Shown here: positions 17,575 through 59,942 of the stretch, piece by piece
Position numbering within the stretch: position 1 is the stretch's first letter
Layout of the letters: each line of letters opens with the position of its first letter
DNA from: Amorphoplanes friuliensis DSM 7358
GTDB taxonomy: Bacteria > Actinomycetota > Actinomycetes > Mycobacteriales > Micromonosporaceae
DNA: 64,000 bases
NCBI RefSeq assembly: GCF_000494755.1
Contig: NC_022657.1
Coordinates: forward strand, 4,440,001 to 4,504,000
Direction: 5' to 3'
Position numbers and translations under genes: made by a program
The notes under the pieces: generated by a model
Seen by the model: only the letters and a program-made list of their open reading frames with translations
Databases searched by the model: none
Told to the model about the DNA's origin: nothing

Positions 17575-18227
17575 CCTTCTCCGAACTCAGCGACCTGATC
17601 GGGGTGGGCCTGCAGGAGACCGCGTGGATGGTCGGCGTCTCCACGCTGCTCACCGCGGTCGGCGGCCTGCTGCTCGGCATCCTGCTCGTGCTCACCGACC
17701 GTGGTGGGCTGCTGTCCGCGCCGCCGGTCAACGCACTGCTCGGCCTGATCGTGAACGTCGGCCGCTCGCTGCCATTCATCATCCTGCTGGTCGCGGTCAT
17801 CCCGTTCACCCGCGCGGTCGTCGGCACGACCATCGGCACCACGGCGGCGATCGTGCCGCTGACCATCGGCGCCATCCCGTTCTACGCCCGGATCGTCGAG
17901 ACCGCTCTCCGCGAGGTACCGCCGGACGTCGTCTCCGCTGCGGTCGCCATGGGCGCCTCCCGCCGCCAGATCATCGGCAAGGTCCTGCTGCGCGAGGCCC
18001 GTCCCGGTCTCGTGGCGGGTCTCACCATCACGGTCATCGCGCTCGTCGGCTACTCCGCGATGGCCGGGGTGGTCGGTGGCGGCGGCCTCGGTGATCTGGC
18101 GATCCGGTACGGCTACCAGCGCTTCGAGACCGACGTGATGATCGCGACCGTGGTGGTCCTGATCGTCTTCGTGCAACTGATCCAGACGCTGGGCGACGTC
18201 CTCGTCCGGCGGCTGTCCCACCGATAG
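17571..18227 (+). CDS. metI: Methionine ABC transporter permease
   Basis: 218 aa, start overlaps the metN stop (ATGA). Five or so membrane helices, with the first at WMVGVSTLLTAVGGLLLGIL. The EAA loop that contacts the ATPase is VSAAVAMGASRRQIIGKVLL. Sequence such as NVGRSLPFIILLVAVIPFTR is characteristic of MetI. Inner-membrane channel of the MetNIQ importer. Confidence 0.95.
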   Translation: MTFSELSDLIGVGLQETAWMVGVSTLLTAVGGLLLGILLVLTDRGGLLSAPPVNALLGLIVNVGRSLPFIILLVAVIPFTRAVVGTTIGTTAAIVPLTIGAIPFYARIVETALREVPPDVVSAAVAMGASRRQIIGKVLLREARPGLVAGLTITVIALVGYSAMAGVVGGGGLGDLAIRYGYQRFETDVMIATVVVLIVFVQLIQTLGDVLVRRLSHR

Positions 18228-18242
18228 AAAGGCACACCCCAC

Positions 18243-19061
18243 ATGCGCCACCGTTCGTTCGCCGCCTCCCTCGCCGCCGCCGGGCTCGTCCTCAGCCTGG
18301 CTGCGTGCGGAGGCTCCGACTCAGGCTCCGCCGCCGACGACACCCTCAAGGTTGGCGTCAGCCCGGTGCCGCACGCCGAGATCCTGAACTACGTCAAGGA
18401 CAACCTGGCCGCCGCCGAGGGCCTGAAGCTGGAAGTGGTCGAGTTCAACGACTACATCCAGCCGAACGTGGCCCTGAGCGAGAAGCAGATCGGCGCGAAC
18501 TACTTCCAGCACATCCCGTACCTGGACGAGGAGGTCGCGGCCAAGGGGTACAAGTTCACGGCCCTGAAGCCCGTCCACATCGAACCGCTCGGCCTCTACT
18601 CCAAGAAGGTCAAGACCCTGGCCGAGGTGCCCGCCGGTGGTGTCGTGGCCCTGCCCAACGACCCGTCCAACTCGGGCCGTGCCCTGAACCTGCTGGCGAA
18701 GAACGGCCTGATCACGCTCAAGGACGGTGTGGGCGTCAAGGCGACCGAGAAGGACATCGCCACCAACCCGAAGAACCTGTCCTTCAAGTCACTCGAGGCG
18801 GCCCAGCTGCCGCGCAGCCTCGAGGACACCGCGGTCTCGGTGATCAACGGCAACTACGCGATCCAGACGGGCCTCCAGCCGGCCAAGGACGCCCTTGCCC
18901 TCGAGGACGGTCAGGACAACCCGTACGCCAACCTGCTCGTGGTGCGTACGGGCGACGAGAACGACCCGCGCGTCGTCAAGCTGGAGAAGCTGCTGCACTC
19001 CGCCGAGGTCAAGAAGTTCATCGCCGACAAGTACCAGGGGTCGGTGCTCGCGGCGTTCTGA
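18243..19061 (+). CDS. metQ: Methionine-binding lipoprotein
   Basis: 272 aa with lipoprotein signal ending LVLSLAACGG. The mature part is NlpA/MetQ: LKVGVSPVPHAEILNYVKDN, EFNDYIQPNVALSEKQIGAN, YFQHIPYLDEEVAAKG and GVVALPNDPSNSGRALNLL. It captures methionine outside and delivers it to MetNI. The ribosome site AGAAAGG lies 15 nt after the metI stop. Last gene of the operon, followed by a strong hairpin at 19106-19133. Confidence 0.95.
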   Translation: MRHRSFAASLAAAGLVLSLAACGGSDSGSAADDTLKVGVSPVPHAEILNYVKDNLAAAEGLKLEVVEFNDYIQPNVALSEKQIGANYFQHIPYLDEEVAAKGYKFTALKPVHIEPLGLYSKKVKTLAEVPAGGVVALPNDPSNSGRALNLLAKNGLITLKDGVGVKATEKDIATNPKNLSFKSLEAAQLPRSLEDTAVSVINGNYAIQTGLQPAKDALALEDGQDNPYANLLVVRTGDENDPRVVKLEKLLHSAEVKKFIADKYQGSVLAAF

Positions 19062-19105
19062 CGACCCGGGCGGCGCCGGGACGGCCGGGCCGTTTCTGCT
19101 GGAGG

Positions 19106-19133
19106 CCGGCGGCCCCTGATCAGGGGTCGCCGG
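19106..19133. terminator. Bidirectional terminator, metQ / marR
   Basis: CCGGCGGCCCCT (19106-19117) pairs with AGGGGTCGCCGG (19122-19133), a 12-bp stem with one G-U pair and a GATC tetraloop. It lies between convergent metQ and the MarR gene. Confidence 0.8.
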
Positions 19134-19166
19134 TGGTGCTTGTGGGGTCGCCGTGGTGCGTACCGG

Positions 19167-19631
19167 TCAGCAGGTGCCGTTGATGTTGCGCAGGAGGCGG
19201 TCGCTGATCTCGCCGAGCTGGCGCAGCTGTGCCGGAGTCAGAGCGTCGATGACCAGGCGGCGGACGTCCTCGACGTGGCCCGGGGCGGTGGCGACGAGCT
19301 TGGCGCGACCGTCCTCGGTGAGGATCGCGTTGGTGTAGCGGCCGTCGGACGGGTCGAGCTCGCGGCGGACCCACCCGCGGCGCTCGAGGCGCTTGATCAG
19401 GTGGGACATGCGGGACAGCGAGCCGCGCGCGAAACCGGCGAGGGTGCTGATGCGCATGGTGCCGCCGGGGGCGTCGGAGAGGGCGGCGAGGACGCCGTAT
19501 TCGAACTGCGTCATGCCGGCCCTGCTCTGCATCTCGCCGTCGAGTTCGGCGGGCAGGACCACGAGCAGGGCGGACAGGCGCATCCAGGCCTGCAGCTGCT
19601 GCTCGTCGAGCCATCGTCCCTCGTTGCTCAC
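19167..19631 (-). CDS. MarR-family regulator next to DoxX
   Basis: 154 aa from GTG 19631. The winged-helix core is visible: TQFEYGVLAALSDAPGGTMR, SRMSHLIKRLERRGWVRREL and the wing DPSDGRYTNAILTEDGRAKL. It is divergent from doxX across a 92-nt region packed with TTGA-N4-TCAA sites, one of which covers its own -35 area; TATGAT lies 6 nt before the GTG, so the mRNA is probably leaderless. The same sites occur in front of the DODA dioxygenase at 58681-58737, so that gene is a likely second target. MarR proteins usually respond to phenolic or oxidant signals. Confidence 0.9.
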   Translation of the reverse strand: MSNEGRWLDEQQLQAWMRLSALLVVLPAELDGEMQSRAGMTQFEYGVLAALSDAPGGTMRISTLAGFARGSLSRMSHLIKRLERRGWVRRELDPSDGRYTNAILTEDGRAKLVATAPGHVEDVRRLVIDALTPAQLRQLGEISDRLLRNINGTC

Positions 19632-19637
19632 GCGCCG

Positions 19638-19704
19638 ATCATACCGTCACATCCGGTTGACCGTTCAAGTTGAAGCGTCTACCTTCTCGGTAGAACGTTC
19701 AACT
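19638..19704. promoter_or_regulatory. MarR operators between marR and doxX
   Basis: Three copies of a 12-bp core: TTGACCGTTCAA (19657-19668), TTGAAGCGTCTA (19670-19681) and TAGAACGTTCAA (19691-19702). The last two form a large inverted repeat, AGTTGAAGCGTCTACC (19668-19683) against GGTAGAACGTTCAACT (19689-19704), 14 of 16 positions pairing. The marR -10 TATGAT is at 19643-19638. Site 19669-19682 matches the site at 58681-58694 (minus strand) in 13 of 14 bases. Confidence 0.7.
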
Positions 19705-19723
19705 CATTCGAAGGGTCATCCCC

Positions 19724-20098
19724 ATGAACATCGCTCTGTGGATCGTCGCCGGCCTGCTCGCCGTCGCGTTCCTCTTCTCCGGCGGCATGAAGGTCGTCCG
19801 GAAGCGGGAAGACCTGCTCAAGGCCGGTATGGGCTTCGTCGAGGACTTCCCGCTGGGTGCTGTGCGCGCCATCGGAGCCCTGGAGGTGCTCGCCGCGATC
19901 GGCCTGATCCTGCCGGCCGTGCTCGACATCGCCACGGTCCTCGTCCCGCTGGCGGCCACCGGCCTGGCCCTGATGATGGTCGGCGCGATCATCGTCCACA
20001 TCCGCCGCGGCGAGACCAAGGCCCTCGCACCCAACATCGTCCTGTTGCTCCTGGCCGTCTTCGTGGCCTGGGGCCGCTTCGGACCGTACGCGTTCTAA
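19724..20098 (+). CDS. DoxX family membrane protein
   Basis: 124 aa, four hydrophobic helices: ALWIVAGLLAVAFLFSGGMK, AIGALEVLAAIGLILPAVLD, VLVPLAATGLALMMVGAII and NIVLLLLAVFVAWGRF. This is the four-helix DoxX/DoxD-like fold, often linked to redox stress or aromatic metabolism in actinobacteria; the activity is unknown. The ribosome site GAAGGG precedes the ATG. It is the divergent partner of the MarR gene and almost certainly its target. Confidence 0.85.
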   Translation: MNIALWIVAGLLAVAFLFSGGMKVVRKREDLLKAGMGFVEDFPLGAVRAIGALEVLAAIGLILPAVLDIATVLVPLAATGLALMMVGAIIVHIRRGETKALAPNIVLLLLAVFVAWGRFGPYAF

Positions 20099-20179
20099 AC
20101 AGGGGGTAGTTCGCGGCGGGCTGGTTCGATCCGTGCCACGATGAACGCGAAGGTTCAGGTCCAGGCGGGAGTCAAGGCA

Positions 20180-21805
20180 ATGAGCGAACACGTTTCCGAC
20201 AGCGCCGAGTGGCAGGCAGTGCAGGGGCACGCCGAGAAGTTCTCGAGCGTGCACCTGCGCGAGCTGTTCGACAGCGATCCACGGCGCGGCGAGCGGCTCA
20301 CCGCCCAGGTGGCGGATCTCTACGTGGACTACAGCAAGAACCTGGTGACCGACGAGGTCCTCGCCGCACTGATCGCCCTCGCCGAGAAGGCGAAGCTGCG
20401 CGAGCGCATCGAGGCCATGTTCACCGGCGAACACATCAACGTCACCGAGGACCGCGCCGTGCTGCACACCGCGCTGCGCCTGCCGCGGGGTGCCGAGCTG
20501 GTCGTCGACGGTCAGGACGTCGCCCACGACGTGCACGAGGTCCTCGACCGGATGGGCGCCTTCACCGACCGCGTCCGGTCCGGCGAGTGGGTCGGCGCCA
20601 CCGGCGAGCGGATCAAGACCGTGGTCAACATCGGCATCGGCGGGTCCGACCTCGGACCGGTCATGGCGTACGAGGCGCTCAAGGCCGACGCGAGCATCGA
20701 GTGCCGGTTCATCTCCAACATCGACCCGACGGACCTCTATCAGAAGACCCACGACCTGGACCCCGCGTCCACGCTGTTCGTGATCGTCTCGAAGACGTTC
20801 GGCACCCAGGAGACGCTGACCAACGCGACCGAGGCGCGCAACTGGCTGCTGGCCGGTCTCGGCGGCGACCAGTCCGCCGTGGCCAAGCACTTCGTCGCCG
20901 TCAGCACCAACGCGCAGCGGGTCGCCGACTTCGGCATCGACACCGAGAACATGTTCGGCTTCTGGGACTGGGTCGGCGGGCGCTACTCGCTGCCGTCCGC
21001 GGTCGGCCTGTCGGTGATGCTGGCCATCGGCAAGGAGAAGTTCGGCGAGCTGCTCGCCGGATATCACGTCGTCGACGAGCACTTCCGCACCACGCCGCTC
21101 GAGCAGAACGTCCCGGCGCTGCTGGGCCTGCTGAACGTCTGGTACGACACGTTCCTCGGTGCACAGTCGCACGCGGTCCTGCCGTACTCGCAGTACCTGC
21201 ACCGCTTCGCCGCGTACCTCCAGCAGCTCACCATGGAGAGCAACGGCAAGCACGTCCGCCTCGACGGCGCCGCGGTGGACTACCAGACCGGCGAGGTCTT
21301 CTGGGGCGAGCCCGGCACGAACGGCCAGCACGCGTTCTACCAGCTGATCCACCAGGGTACGAAGCTCATCCCGGCGGACTTCATCGGCTTCAGCGTGCCC
21401 AACCACGACACCGGCGAGATGCACGACCTCTTCATGTCGAACTTCTTCGCCCAGACCGGCGCGCTCGCGTTCGGCCGCACGGCGGAGGAGGTCGCCGCCG
21501 AGGGTGTGCCGGCCCAGATCGTCCCGCACAAGGTGATGCCGGGCAACCACCCGACCACCACCATCCTGGCGGAGAAGCTCACCCCGGGCGTACTCGGCCA
21601 GCTCATCGCCCTGTACGAGCACATCACCTTCACCCAGGGCACGATCTGGGAGATCAACTCGTTCGACCAGTGGGGCGTGGAGCTCGGCAAGGTCATGGCC
21701 AACCAGCTGGCGCCGCTGCTCACCGCACCGTCAGCTCCCGCTTCGTCGGTCGACTCGTCGACCGACGCGTTGATCGCCCGGTACCGGGCCCAGCGCGGAC
21801 GCTGA
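20180..21805 (+). CDS. pgi: Glucose-6-phosphate isomerase
   Basis: 541 aa from ATG 20180 (GGCGGGAG upstream; an in-frame ATG at 20141 has no ribosome site). Interconverts glucose-6-P and fructose-6-P in glycolysis and gluconeogenesis. Family motifs: [57 protein letters not shown] and [20 protein letters not shown], with the catalytic Glu in the last-but-one region and the C-terminal Lys segment [10 protein letters not shown]. Length fits the long bacterial/eukaryotic PGI. Monocistronic; a perfect hairpin follows 8 nt after the stop. Confidence 0.97.
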
Positions 21806-57897: not shown

Positions 57898-58668
57898 TCA
57901 GGCGACCTGGAAGGACCGCTTCGACAGGCCCATCCAGAAGCCGTCGATGGGCTGGTCCGGGCTCTGCTCCGGGTCGGTGGAGGCGCCCAGGGTCAGGAAC
58001 ATCGGCGCCATGTGCTCGATCGTCGGGTGGGCGTAGGGCATGCCGGGGGCCCGGTTGCGGAAGTCGGCGAGCTCGTCGACCGCGCCGCGTGCCAGGGTCT
58101 CCGCCGTCCAGGCGTCGAACTCCTTGGACCAGCCGGGCGCCTTCGCGTCCGTGCGCCAGTCCCGCAGGAACGGCAGCCCGTGCGTGGTGAAGCCGGAGCC
58201 GACGATGAGCACACCCTCGTCGCGCAGGGGTGCGAGCCGGCGGCCGATCTCCAGCAGCCGATCGGGTTCCAGGGTCGGCAGTGACATCTGCAGCACCGGG
58301 ACGTCCGCGTCGGGGTACATGACCGTCAGCGGCACGTAGGCGCCGTGGTCCAGGCCGCGGTCGGTACGGGTGACGCGTTCGCTGTCGGGCATCAGCTTCT
58401 CGATGCGGTCGGCCAGCTCGGGCGCACCGGGCGCGCGGTACTGCACCTCGTAGTAGTGCCGGGGGAAGCCACCGAAGTCGTAGACCAGCGGGACGGTCTC
58501 GGTGGCGCCGAGCATCAGCGGGGCCGACTCCCAGTGTGCCGAGGCCATCAGGATCGCCTTCGGCGTGGGCAGGCCCGCGGTCAGGTCCTTCAGCTGGGCG
58601 ACCCAGGTGGGGTCGTCGACCAGCGGGGGAGCGCCGTGGCTGATGAACAGGGCGGGCATGGTGCTCAT
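57898..58668 (-). CDS. DODA-type class III extradiol dioxygenase (YgiD-like)
   Basis: 256 aa, Shine-Dalgarno CGGAGG. LigB/DODA fold: PALFISHGAPPLVDDPTWVA (first His), ILMASAHWESAPLMLG, GLDHGAYVPLTVMYPDADVP (His with the typical GLDHG), and LPFLRDWRTDAKAPGWSKEF. These His residues bind a single metal (zinc or iron) that opens catechol-like rings. Two MarR-type operators lie just upstream and match those in front of doxX at 19657-19704. MarR, DoxX and DODA genes are often neighbours elsewhere; here they are 39 kb apart. Physiological substrate unknown. Confidence 0.88.
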   Translation of the reverse strand: MSTMPALFISHGAPPLVDDPTWVAQLKDLTAGLPTPKAILMASAHWESAPLMLGATETVPLVYDFGGFPRHYYEVQYRAPGAPELADRIEKLMPDSERVTRTDRGLDHGAYVPLTVMYPDADVPVLQMSLPTLEPDRLLEIGRRLAPLRDEGVLIVGSGFTTHGLPFLRDWRTDAKAPGWSKEFDAWTAETLARGAVDELADFRNRAPGMPYAHPTIEHMAPMFLTLGASTDPEQSPDQPIDGFWMGLSKRSFQVA

Positions 58669-58680
58669 GGAGGGCCTCCG

Positions 58681-58737
58681 GTTGACGCTTCAACTACCTG
58701 CCTCCACGATACGTCGGTTTAGTTGAGGCGTCAACTA
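58681..58737 (-). promoter_or_regulatory. MarR-type operators upstream of the dioxygenase
   Basis: GTTGACGCTTCAAC (58681-58694) and TAGTTGAGGCGTCAACTA (58720-58737) are palindromes with the core TTGA-N4-TCAA. On the minus strand the first reads GTTGAAGCGTCAAC, 13 of 14 bases identical to 19669-19682 next to doxX. The second runs into the 3' end of the DUF1501 gene. Confidence 0.7.
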
Positions 58738-59942
58738 AAGTCGAAGCGGCCGTCCCAGCCGTCGAGGATCCGGCCGGGGTCGGCGTCCAGCACGTCGGCG
58801 AGCAGCATCGCGTAGACGTCGCGGAAGTCGGTCGTGTGCTTGAGGTCGCCGTCGTCGAGGTCGGTCAGGCTCGGCGCCTCGCCGTACAGGCCACCCTTGA
58901 TGCCGTCGCCGAGGAGAAAGACCGAGGAGGCCGTGCCGTGGTCGGTACCGTCGGACGCGTTGGCGTGGACACGGCGGCCGAACTCCGAGTAGACCGCGAC
59001 GACGACCTCGCGGCCGGCCATCCGTTCCACGAACGCGGCCAGGGGCTTGTCGAGCTTGGCCAGCAGGGCCTCCTGGGCCGTCTTCTCGTCGGCGTGCAGG
59101 TCGAAGCCGCCCAGCGACACCGAGTAGACGCGGGTGGCGGCGCCGGCCTCCACGCAGCGTGTGACCAGGGCGAGCTGCTGGTCCAGGGGTGGCGCCTGCC
59201 CGCCGGTGGCGGTGGCCTGGCCCTCCGGCTCGTCGTCGTCCTCGGCCTCCGCGGCGACGTCGGTCATCAGGCCCTGGACGCGGACCAGGTCGGCAAAACA
59301 CGCCGCCGCCCGGGCCTGGGCGGGTGACTCGCCGGCTGCGGGCGTACCGAAACCGTCCAGGACCGGAGGGGTCACGCCCTGGGGGAGAGTCAGCGCGCCG
59401 CCGGGCACGGTCGCTCCCGCGCTGGTTGCGCCGGCGAGGACCGGTGGCAGGACCGGCTCGAACGACACGGCCAGCCGCGGGTCCCGGCCCGCCGTGTCGA
59501 GCCAGCGCCCCAGCCAGCCCGTGGTCCCGGGGCGTTCCGGGCTGGCCGTCTGCCAGATGTCCATCGAGCGGAAATGGCTGCGGTCGGGCTTCGGATAGCC
59601 GACACCGCGGACGATCGCCAGACGGTCCTCCCCGTACAGTTTGTGCAGGCCTTTCAGGCCCGGATTGAGTCCGAAGCCGTCCTCGAGCCTGAGCACCTGC
59701 CCCTCGTCGTAGGTGAGGCCGGGCCTGGCTGCGGCATAGGCCGGATCCGCGTACGGGATGACGGTGTTGAGACCGTCGTTGCCGCCGTAGAGGGTGACCA
59801 GCACGAGGATCTTGCCGGGGTCACGCTGCCCCGAGGTGGCCAGGATGTCGCGCAGCGCGTAGGCGGAACCGCCCGCGGCCAGGGCGCCGGCCGCGACGAC
59901 GCCGCTGGCGGTGAGGAACTTGCGCCGGGTGATCGTGTCCAT
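58731..59942 (-). CDS. Tat-exported DUF1501 protein
   Basis: 403 aa from ATG 59942 (GAAGGGAAG upstream). Tat signal TRRKFLTASGVVAAGALAAG. The body is DUF1501: ILVLVTLYGGNDGLNTVIPY, IVRGVGYPKPDRSHFRSMDI, FDLHADEKTAQEALLAKLDK and VVVAVYSEFGRRVHANASDG TDHGT. This pattern resembles alkaline-phosphatase/sulfatase-like folds (the Gly-Gly-Asn-Asp and His residues would form a metal site), but the activity is not established. It lies directly below the DUF1800 gene in a two-gene operon, a pairing widely conserved in actinobacteria and Planctomycetes. Confidence 0.92.
   Translation of the reverse strand: MDTITRRKFLTASGVVAAGALAAGGSAYALRDILATSGQRDPGKILVLVTLYGGNDGLNTVIPYADPAYAAARPGLTYDEGQVLRLEDGFGLNPGLKGLHKLYGEDRLAIVRGVGYPKPDRSHFRSMDIWQTASPERPGTTGWLGRWLDTAGRDPRLAVSFEPVLPPVLAGATSAGATVPGGALTLPQGVTPPVLDGFGTPAAGESPAQARAAACFADLVRVQGLMTDVAAEAEDDDEPEGQATATGGQAPPLDQQLALVTRCVEAGAATRVYSVSLGGFDLHADEKTAQEALLAKLDKPLAAFVERMAGREVVVAVYSEFGRRVHANASDGTDHGTASSVFLLGDGIKGGLYGEAPSLTDLDDGDLKHTTDFRDVYAMLLADVLDADPGRILDGWDGRFDFS

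Follow-up and report, generated by a model that had tools for sequence, protein, structure and literature searches.

Paired candidate MarR operators at the doxX and extradiol dioxygenase promoters of Amorphoplanes friuliensis, and a possible dispersed regulon with ribA

Genes and paired sites at the two promoters

The window, a 64,000-nt stretch of Amorphoplanes friuliensis DSM 7358 (contig NC_022657.1, positions 4,440,001 to 4,504,000), contains a marR gene, whose product we call MarR1, divergently transcribed from doxX across a 92-bp gap; 39 kb from marR lies a gene encoding a DODA-like extradiol dioxygenase (here, DODA). Both promoter regions contain clustered sites that look like genuine MarR-type operators. 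The features, with positions counted from the first base of the window, are as follows.

19167 to 19631, minus strand: marR, encoding MarR1, an SCO3205-like MarR regulator, divergent from doxX (Pfam MarR_2, 1.1e-10; phmmer against PDB 3zpl, E = 1.3e-31)
19656 to 19669, plus strand: operator 1 (core 1) of the marR/doxX gap, GTTGACCGTTCAAG; includes the putative doxX −35, TTGACC (19657 to 19662)
19669 to 19682, plus strand: middle core (core 2), GTTGAAGCGTCTAC; its right end overlaps the putative doxX −10, TACCTT (19680 to 19685)
19690 to 19703, plus strand: operator 2 (core 3) of the marR/doxX gap, GTAGAACGTTCAAC; downstream of the putative doxX −10
19724 to 20098, plus strand: doxX, encoding a DoxX_2 family membrane protein (Pfam DoxX_2, 8.8e-27)
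57898 to 58668, minus strand: gene for DODA, a DODA-like LigB-family extradiol dioxygenase (Pfam LigB, 1.3e-28)
58681 to 58694, no strand assigned: downstream DODA operator, a perfect GTTGA-N4-TCAAC between the −10 and the start codon
58706 to 58734, minus strand: DODA promoter, −35 TTGACG (58734 to 58729), 17-bp spacer, −10 TATCGT (58711 to 58706)
58722 to 58735, no strand assigned: upstream DODA operator, GTTGAGGCGTCAAC, a perfect GTTGA-N4-TCAAC overlapping the −35 and the DUF1501 stop codon
58731 to 59951, minus strand: DUF1501 gene, upstream of the DODA gene on the same strand (Pfam DUF1501, 4e-28)

The DODA protein matches NCBIfam model PRK10628 (2.7e-52) at 177.7 bits, under that model's cut-off of 233. 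The DUF1501 gene is not thought to be part of the regulon. A plasmid origin was also considered and set aside: the 2-kb stretch from 18200 to 20200 yielded no megablast match in a plasmid collection.

The three TTGA-N4-TCAA-like cores reported by the initial annotation are present in the marR/doxX gap, each one mismatch from GTTGANNNNTCAAC; the inverted repeat formed by cores 2 and 3 matches at 13 of 16 positions, not at the 14 originally given. The middle core shares 13 of its 14 bases with the site at 58681, as had been noted, while the second perfect site before the DODA gene, 41 bp from the first, had been missed. The window has five places within one mismatch of GTTGANNNNTCAAC versus 0.57 expected, a number reached by none of 100 shuffles. 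Genome-wide, perfect GTTGANNNNTCAAC (GTTGA-N4-TCAAC) occurs at nine places in 9,376,071 bases (control, 0), which form five clusters, four of them pairs; tolerating one mismatch raises the count to 57 (control, 27). A genome-wide scan with the consensus first proposed, GTTGARGCGTCWAC, gave a divided result: its three exact occurrences all lie in the doxX or DODA promoter, but with up to two mismatches it fell below the control (72 versus 178 matches).

The consensus scan of positions 58600 to 58800 found one promoter, that of the DODA gene (shuffle mean, 0.0), whose −35 is covered by the upstream operator and whose −10 is separated from the start codon by the downstream operator. The doxX side of the marR/doxX gap has the same layout (TTGACC in core 1, 17 bp, TACCTT, then core 3); the promoter scan did not pick up this promoter, and its putative −35 and −10 come from alignment with orthologs. 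Because in both promoters one operator lies on the −35 and the other just past the −10, a bound dimer would block RNA polymerase, and the pairing suggests simple repression.

Two MarR paralogs and two operator types

Our genome searches scored the best candidates (for example, the best 31 of 84, the best 64 of 84 for the A. friuliensis genome, or the best 150 of 404), and "not found" below is not proof of absence; genes in the loci were called with a simple GC3-based script that missed some.

MarR1 orthologs were found in six further genomes of the 60 in the genus (68 to 78% identity), or 7 of 60 including A. friuliensis itself, and all six are divergent from doxX. Cores 1 and 3 are kept in all seven gaps, with centers ACGT, ACAT, or similar (TTGA-ACGT-TCAA type), albeit with two mismatches in core 3 of one ortholog (L130); this pair is the predicted self-operator of MarR1. 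The middle core is absent from all six other gaps and thus occurs only in our strain among the seven. Since it is not conserved with MarR1, the likeness between the doxX and DODA promoters rests on a site that is not kept with this regulator. Three relatives of MarR1 (L044, L037, and L038) have as divergent neighbors genes that resemble those for flavodoxin or for NADPH-dependent FMN reductase (Pfam, on L044), a neighborhood that hints at quinone or redox stress.

The A. friuliensis genome yields at least 117 MarR_2 matches at E = 1e-3, counted among the best 150 of 404 candidates; those with weak scores are likely not MarR proper. The nearest MarR1 paralog found among the best candidates is MarR2 (5589315 to 5589749; 56% identical to MarR1), about 1.09 Mb from DODA, with CTTGAAGCTTCAAT directly upstream. 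MarR2 orthologs (≥77% identity) occur in 16 of 60 genus genomes including our own, and all seven MarR1 genomes are among them. Each of the 16 has a palindrome upstream, TTGAAGCTTCAA in 14 and TTGACGCTTCAA in 2.

The two kinds of site differ at the center: DODA operators are of AGC(G/T) type, as are those of MarR2 and of the ribA gene described below, whereas MarR1 ortholog operators are of ACGT type. Weight matrices built on the two sets separated the MarR1 type (13/13) and the MarR2 type (16/16) correctly in leave-one-out tests, although sites from the same clade do not count as independent; the MarR1 matrix left out our own middle core and the doxX-side site of L130 with its two mismatches. 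A preference for the MarR2 type is seen at the two DODA sites (7.3 and 10.1 bits) and at the ribA site (10.0 bits), while window cores 1 and 3, which belong to the MarR1 training set, favor the MarR1 type by 13.1 and 15.4 bits; the middle core falls with the MarR2 type. Across the genus, 46 of 49 DODA downstream sites favor the MarR2 type, the exceptions being those of G126, G136, and G156, of which the first two are MarR1 genomes.

The SCO3205 operators of Streptomyces coelicolor, O3204 (a proven dioxygenase operator) and O3205, score 7.7 and 9.7 bits in favor of the MarR1 type, so that from one genus to another the center does not follow the target gene. Several MarR homologs (L048, L050, L051, L064, and L044) have an AGCG-centered site beside a site with another center within a single promoter. 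By eye, the recognition helices of MarR1 and MarR2 agree at base-contacting positions: the equivalents of SCO3205 Ser73 and His77 are kept, and Arg72 is replaced by Leu in both. As far as the description of the SCO3205-DNA structure drawn on here goes, Arg72, Ser73, and His77 contact bases outside the center, and contacts to the central bases are not described (PMC3737563). Because these contacts lie outside the center and the base-contacting residues are common to MarR1 and MarR2, the center may discriminate only weakly, perhaps through indirect readout; binding of MarR1 to the DODA sites is therefore plausible as a possible cross-reaction.

The DODA and ribA operators across the genus and their candidate regulators

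Orthologs of the window DODA, at E values up to 1e-105, were identified in 49 of the 60 genomes of the genus. We analyzed 49 promoters, those of 48 of these orthologs plus one from the family draw (G029); G140, with a partial DODA match, was left out. A perfect TTGA-N4-TCAA site is present in 49/49, and a second site with at most one mismatch is present in 45/49, mostly 40 to 43 bp from the first. For 42 of these 49 genomes, the best candidates scored included no MarR1 ortholog. Likewise, 33 of the 49 promoters come from genomes for which the search recovered no MarR2 ortholog; these promoters keep the sites, and MarR2 is therefore not the sole regulator across the genus. When flanks of about 1.5 kb are considered, 26 of the 33 ortholog loci encode TerC beside DODA; within the same flanks, none of the 33 has a DoxX match, and one alone (L183) has a MarR, partial and of a different kind, at the locus edge.

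MarR, DoxX, and DODA genes had been described as often adjacent elsewhere, and such clusters do exist in related genomes: for 14 of 97 MarR matches (those shorter than 130 residues and identical proteins having been dropped), the locus also encodes both DoxX and DODA, although the DODA match of one (L148) is weak, and for another 8 it encodes DODA without DoxX. In a FastTree phylogeny, which gives local support only and from which matches below 230 residues and identical proteins were dropped, all 10 MarR-DoxX-DODA cluster proteins included fall outside the window DODA clade (39 proteins, support 100); several of the proteins labeled as other in the tree are second copies of ortholog loci. Judging from this tree, the DODA of the clusters is a different paralog from that of the window. 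A. friuliensis has a second, cluster-type DODA as well (56% identical), at 4084445 to 4085200 (L126), divergent from a second DoxX; the locus read contains no MarR match and, even when one mismatch is allowed, no TTGA-N4-TCAA site.

The A. friuliensis genome contains four exact copies of TTGARGCKTCAA: two at DODA, one at MarR2, and one at a ribA-like gene (1945049; promoter at 1945020) for GTP cyclohydrolase II (GTP_cyclohydro2, 1.2e-52). In eight genus genomes including our own, exact TTGAAGYTTCAA occurs at 11 places, 0 to 2 in each (control, 0): 6 at DODA, 3 at a ribA-deaminase-marR operon, 1 at MarR2, and 1 unassigned (G172). The operon, found in G119 (L224), G153 (L229), and G076 (L107), carries genes for GTP cyclohydrolase II, for a member of the cytidine deaminase family, and for a MarR (deaminase and MarR families assigned from G076), and the operator at its head is that of DODA in the same genomes. 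Among the matches listed, 24 of 30 ribA loci have a CTTGAAG(C/T)(A/G)TCAAG site and 6 have none; the 24 site-bearing loci contain no MarR1-, MarR2-, or MarR3-like match. Thirteen of these 24, at ≥87% identity, are all in MarR2 genomes, and the other 11 are in genomes where MarR2 was not found. Because the DODA and ribA sites persist beyond the MarR1 and MarR2 genomes, the operators seem to have a longer history, or a greater stability, than any single one of these repressors: they may be common to several paralogs, or one regulator may have replaced another.

Two GTTGAAGC(T/A)ACAAC sites, 45 bp apart, lie at 4752275 to 4752333 (L020:3776 and 3821), before genes for an F420-type oxidoreductase and a carboxylesterase. 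The locus at 4752275/4752320 is a possible third member of the DODA/ribA regulon, for which the weight matrix is suggestive. A contig search with the oxidoreductase yielded at least 59 loci, mainly proteobacterial, at no more than 46% identity.

We favor, with moderate confidence, a reading that assigns the DODA pair, together with ribA, to a dispersed second regulon, most likely repressed in this genome by MarR2 and relieved by an aromatic or phenolic ligand, while the doxX/marR pair serves as the self-operator of MarR1. Both promoters would thus be flanked by paired operators for SCO3205-type MarR repressors, MarR1 acting at its own doxX/marR pair and MarR2, whose own promoter has the same AGC-centered palindrome, acting at DODA and ribA. 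The existence and conservation of the sites, the geometry of the promoters, and the types of operator are observed; that the sites mediate repression and that MarR2 acts at DODA are inferred, as is the ligand, which is suggested by homology to AbsC and SCO3205. Such a regulon may bring together flavin or pteridine supply and ring cleavage under aromatic stress. As a wider and more tentative proposal, which we put somewhat short of an even chance, a dispersed regulon would couple GTP cyclohydrolase II (flavin/pteridine supply) to a LigB-type dioxygenase, with operators fixed across the genus and the repressor exchanged among SCO3205-like MarRs, either a stand-alone MarR2 or the MarR of the ribA-deaminase-marR operon. 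In the literature searched, at the level of titles and abstract openings, no MarR regulon joining ribA and a LigB dioxygenase was described.

The alternative that fares best is one of overlapping regulons: both promoters would be recognized, with differing affinities, by MarR1, by MarR2, and by other SCO3205-like paralogs, and the middle core would give MarR2 access to doxX in this strain. Stevenson et al. (PMC3737563) propose such overlap for SCO3205, AbsC, and SCO7727, and the overlap would accommodate the helix residues common to MarR1 and MarR2, the AGCG-centered sites that stand beside another center within single promoters, and the retention of DODA sites where MarR2 was not found. We nevertheless think it rather unlikely, as the self-operators of the MarR1 and MarR2 clades separate cleanly in the leave-one-out tests.

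Still less probable, in our judgment, is the arrangement originally suggested for this window, one split MarR-DoxX-DODA regulon in which MarR1 represses both doxX and DODA. It draws on the confinement of exact GTTGARGCGTCWAC to these two promoters, the MarR-DoxX-DODA clusters of other genomes, the shared base-contacting helix residues, the nearness of the SCO3205 operators to the MarR1 type, and the fact that two of the three DODA sites not favoring the MarR2 type come from MarR1 genomes. Against it, 42 of 49 genomes have DODA operators with no MarR1 ortholog found, the operators of MarR1 orthologs have a different center, the middle core common to both promoters is not conserved, and the clusters use another DODA paralog; these points led us to reject MarR1 as the sole DODA regulator. 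When close paralogs exist, a motif common to two promoters in one window is insufficient to name the regulator.

Chance resemblance built on a −35 hexamer (promoters often contain TTGAC, and the remainder would be coincidence) is hardly credible: the upstream operators do overlap the −35 and relaxed GTTGARGCGTCWAC matches fall below the control, but nine mostly paired perfect dyads against none in the control genome-wide, and a perfect site in every DODA promoter analyzed, bear out the initial view that the sharing is unlikely to be accidental.

Comparison with known MarR systems

In the MhqR quinone regulons of Firmicutes, a MarR protein controls DoxX-like and ring-cleavage genes, and its operator differs from the window sites. 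A search of MarR1 against NCBIfam at E = 1e-3 gave no MhqR model among the matches.

RosR of Corynebacterium glutamicum has a GTTGA-N4-TCAAC-type operator and flavin reductase and monooxygenase genes as targets. The A. friuliensis genome has two adjacent perfect GTTGATGTATCAAC sites at 774988 to 775016 (L016:3989 and 4004), between a MarR gene and a divergent gene; the MarR gene is followed by an FMN reductase gene (Pfam), and the divergent gene looks, by eye, like that of a flavin-dependent monooxygenase. We take this locus, and not those of the window, to resemble RosR in operator and targets, a likeness judged by descriptions. One RosR site is named in PMC7764795. Paired sites also occur at two other places in the genome: GTTGACATTTCAAC at 6952125 to 6952166 (L018:3626 and 3654), at the end of a MarR gene and before a same-strand aldo/keto reductase gene, and GTTGA-N4-TCAAC with centers ACTC and AGTC at 6266711 to 6266748 (L017:4212 and 4236), upstream of a gene with a weak likeness to marR, at a distance of about 0.7 kb.

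AbsC (SCO5405; PDB 3zmd) is a homologous MarR (E = 1.3e-19). According to PMC3737563, AbsC is implicated in zinc-dependent antibiotic control, and a Trp/His pair is described that holds salicylate; by eye, this pair is present in MarR1 as Trp7 and His119.

The closest known relative is SCO3205, to whose DNA complex (PDB 3zpl) MarR2 (E = 3.4e-34), like MarR1, is matched by phmmer. According to the same study, CTTGAACTCTCAAT, which stands upstream of the divergent class III extradiol dioxygenase gene sco3204, is bound by SCO3205 with a KD of 1.3 nM; further sites are scattered in the genome, and the role of the regulator stayed unassigned in 2013 because the putative targets lacked a clear physiological theme (Stevenson et al. 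2013, PMC3737563). Our system shares with it a homologous MarR, operators of, or one base from, class TTnAAnnnTCAA, a class III extradiol dioxygenase target, and scattered further sites. Window operator 1 (on the minus strand), the DODA downstream site, and the ribA and MarR2 sites fit TTnAAnnnTCAA exactly; window operator 2 and the DODA upstream site miss it by one base. It differs in that the marR and dioxygenase genes, divergent neighbors in S. coelicolor, are far apart here, in that two operators surround the −35/−10 of each promoter, in that the operator is common to ribA, and in that the center of the DODA sites is unlike that of O3204. By these likenesses of sequence, the window system is probably of the SCO3205 kind, with a different gene arrangement and a putative ribA target. 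From an operator conserved at a LigB dioxygenase gene and a ribA paralog, as footprinting across the genus reveals, SCO3205-type regulators gain a testable theme, that of ring cleavage together with flavin/pteridine supply.
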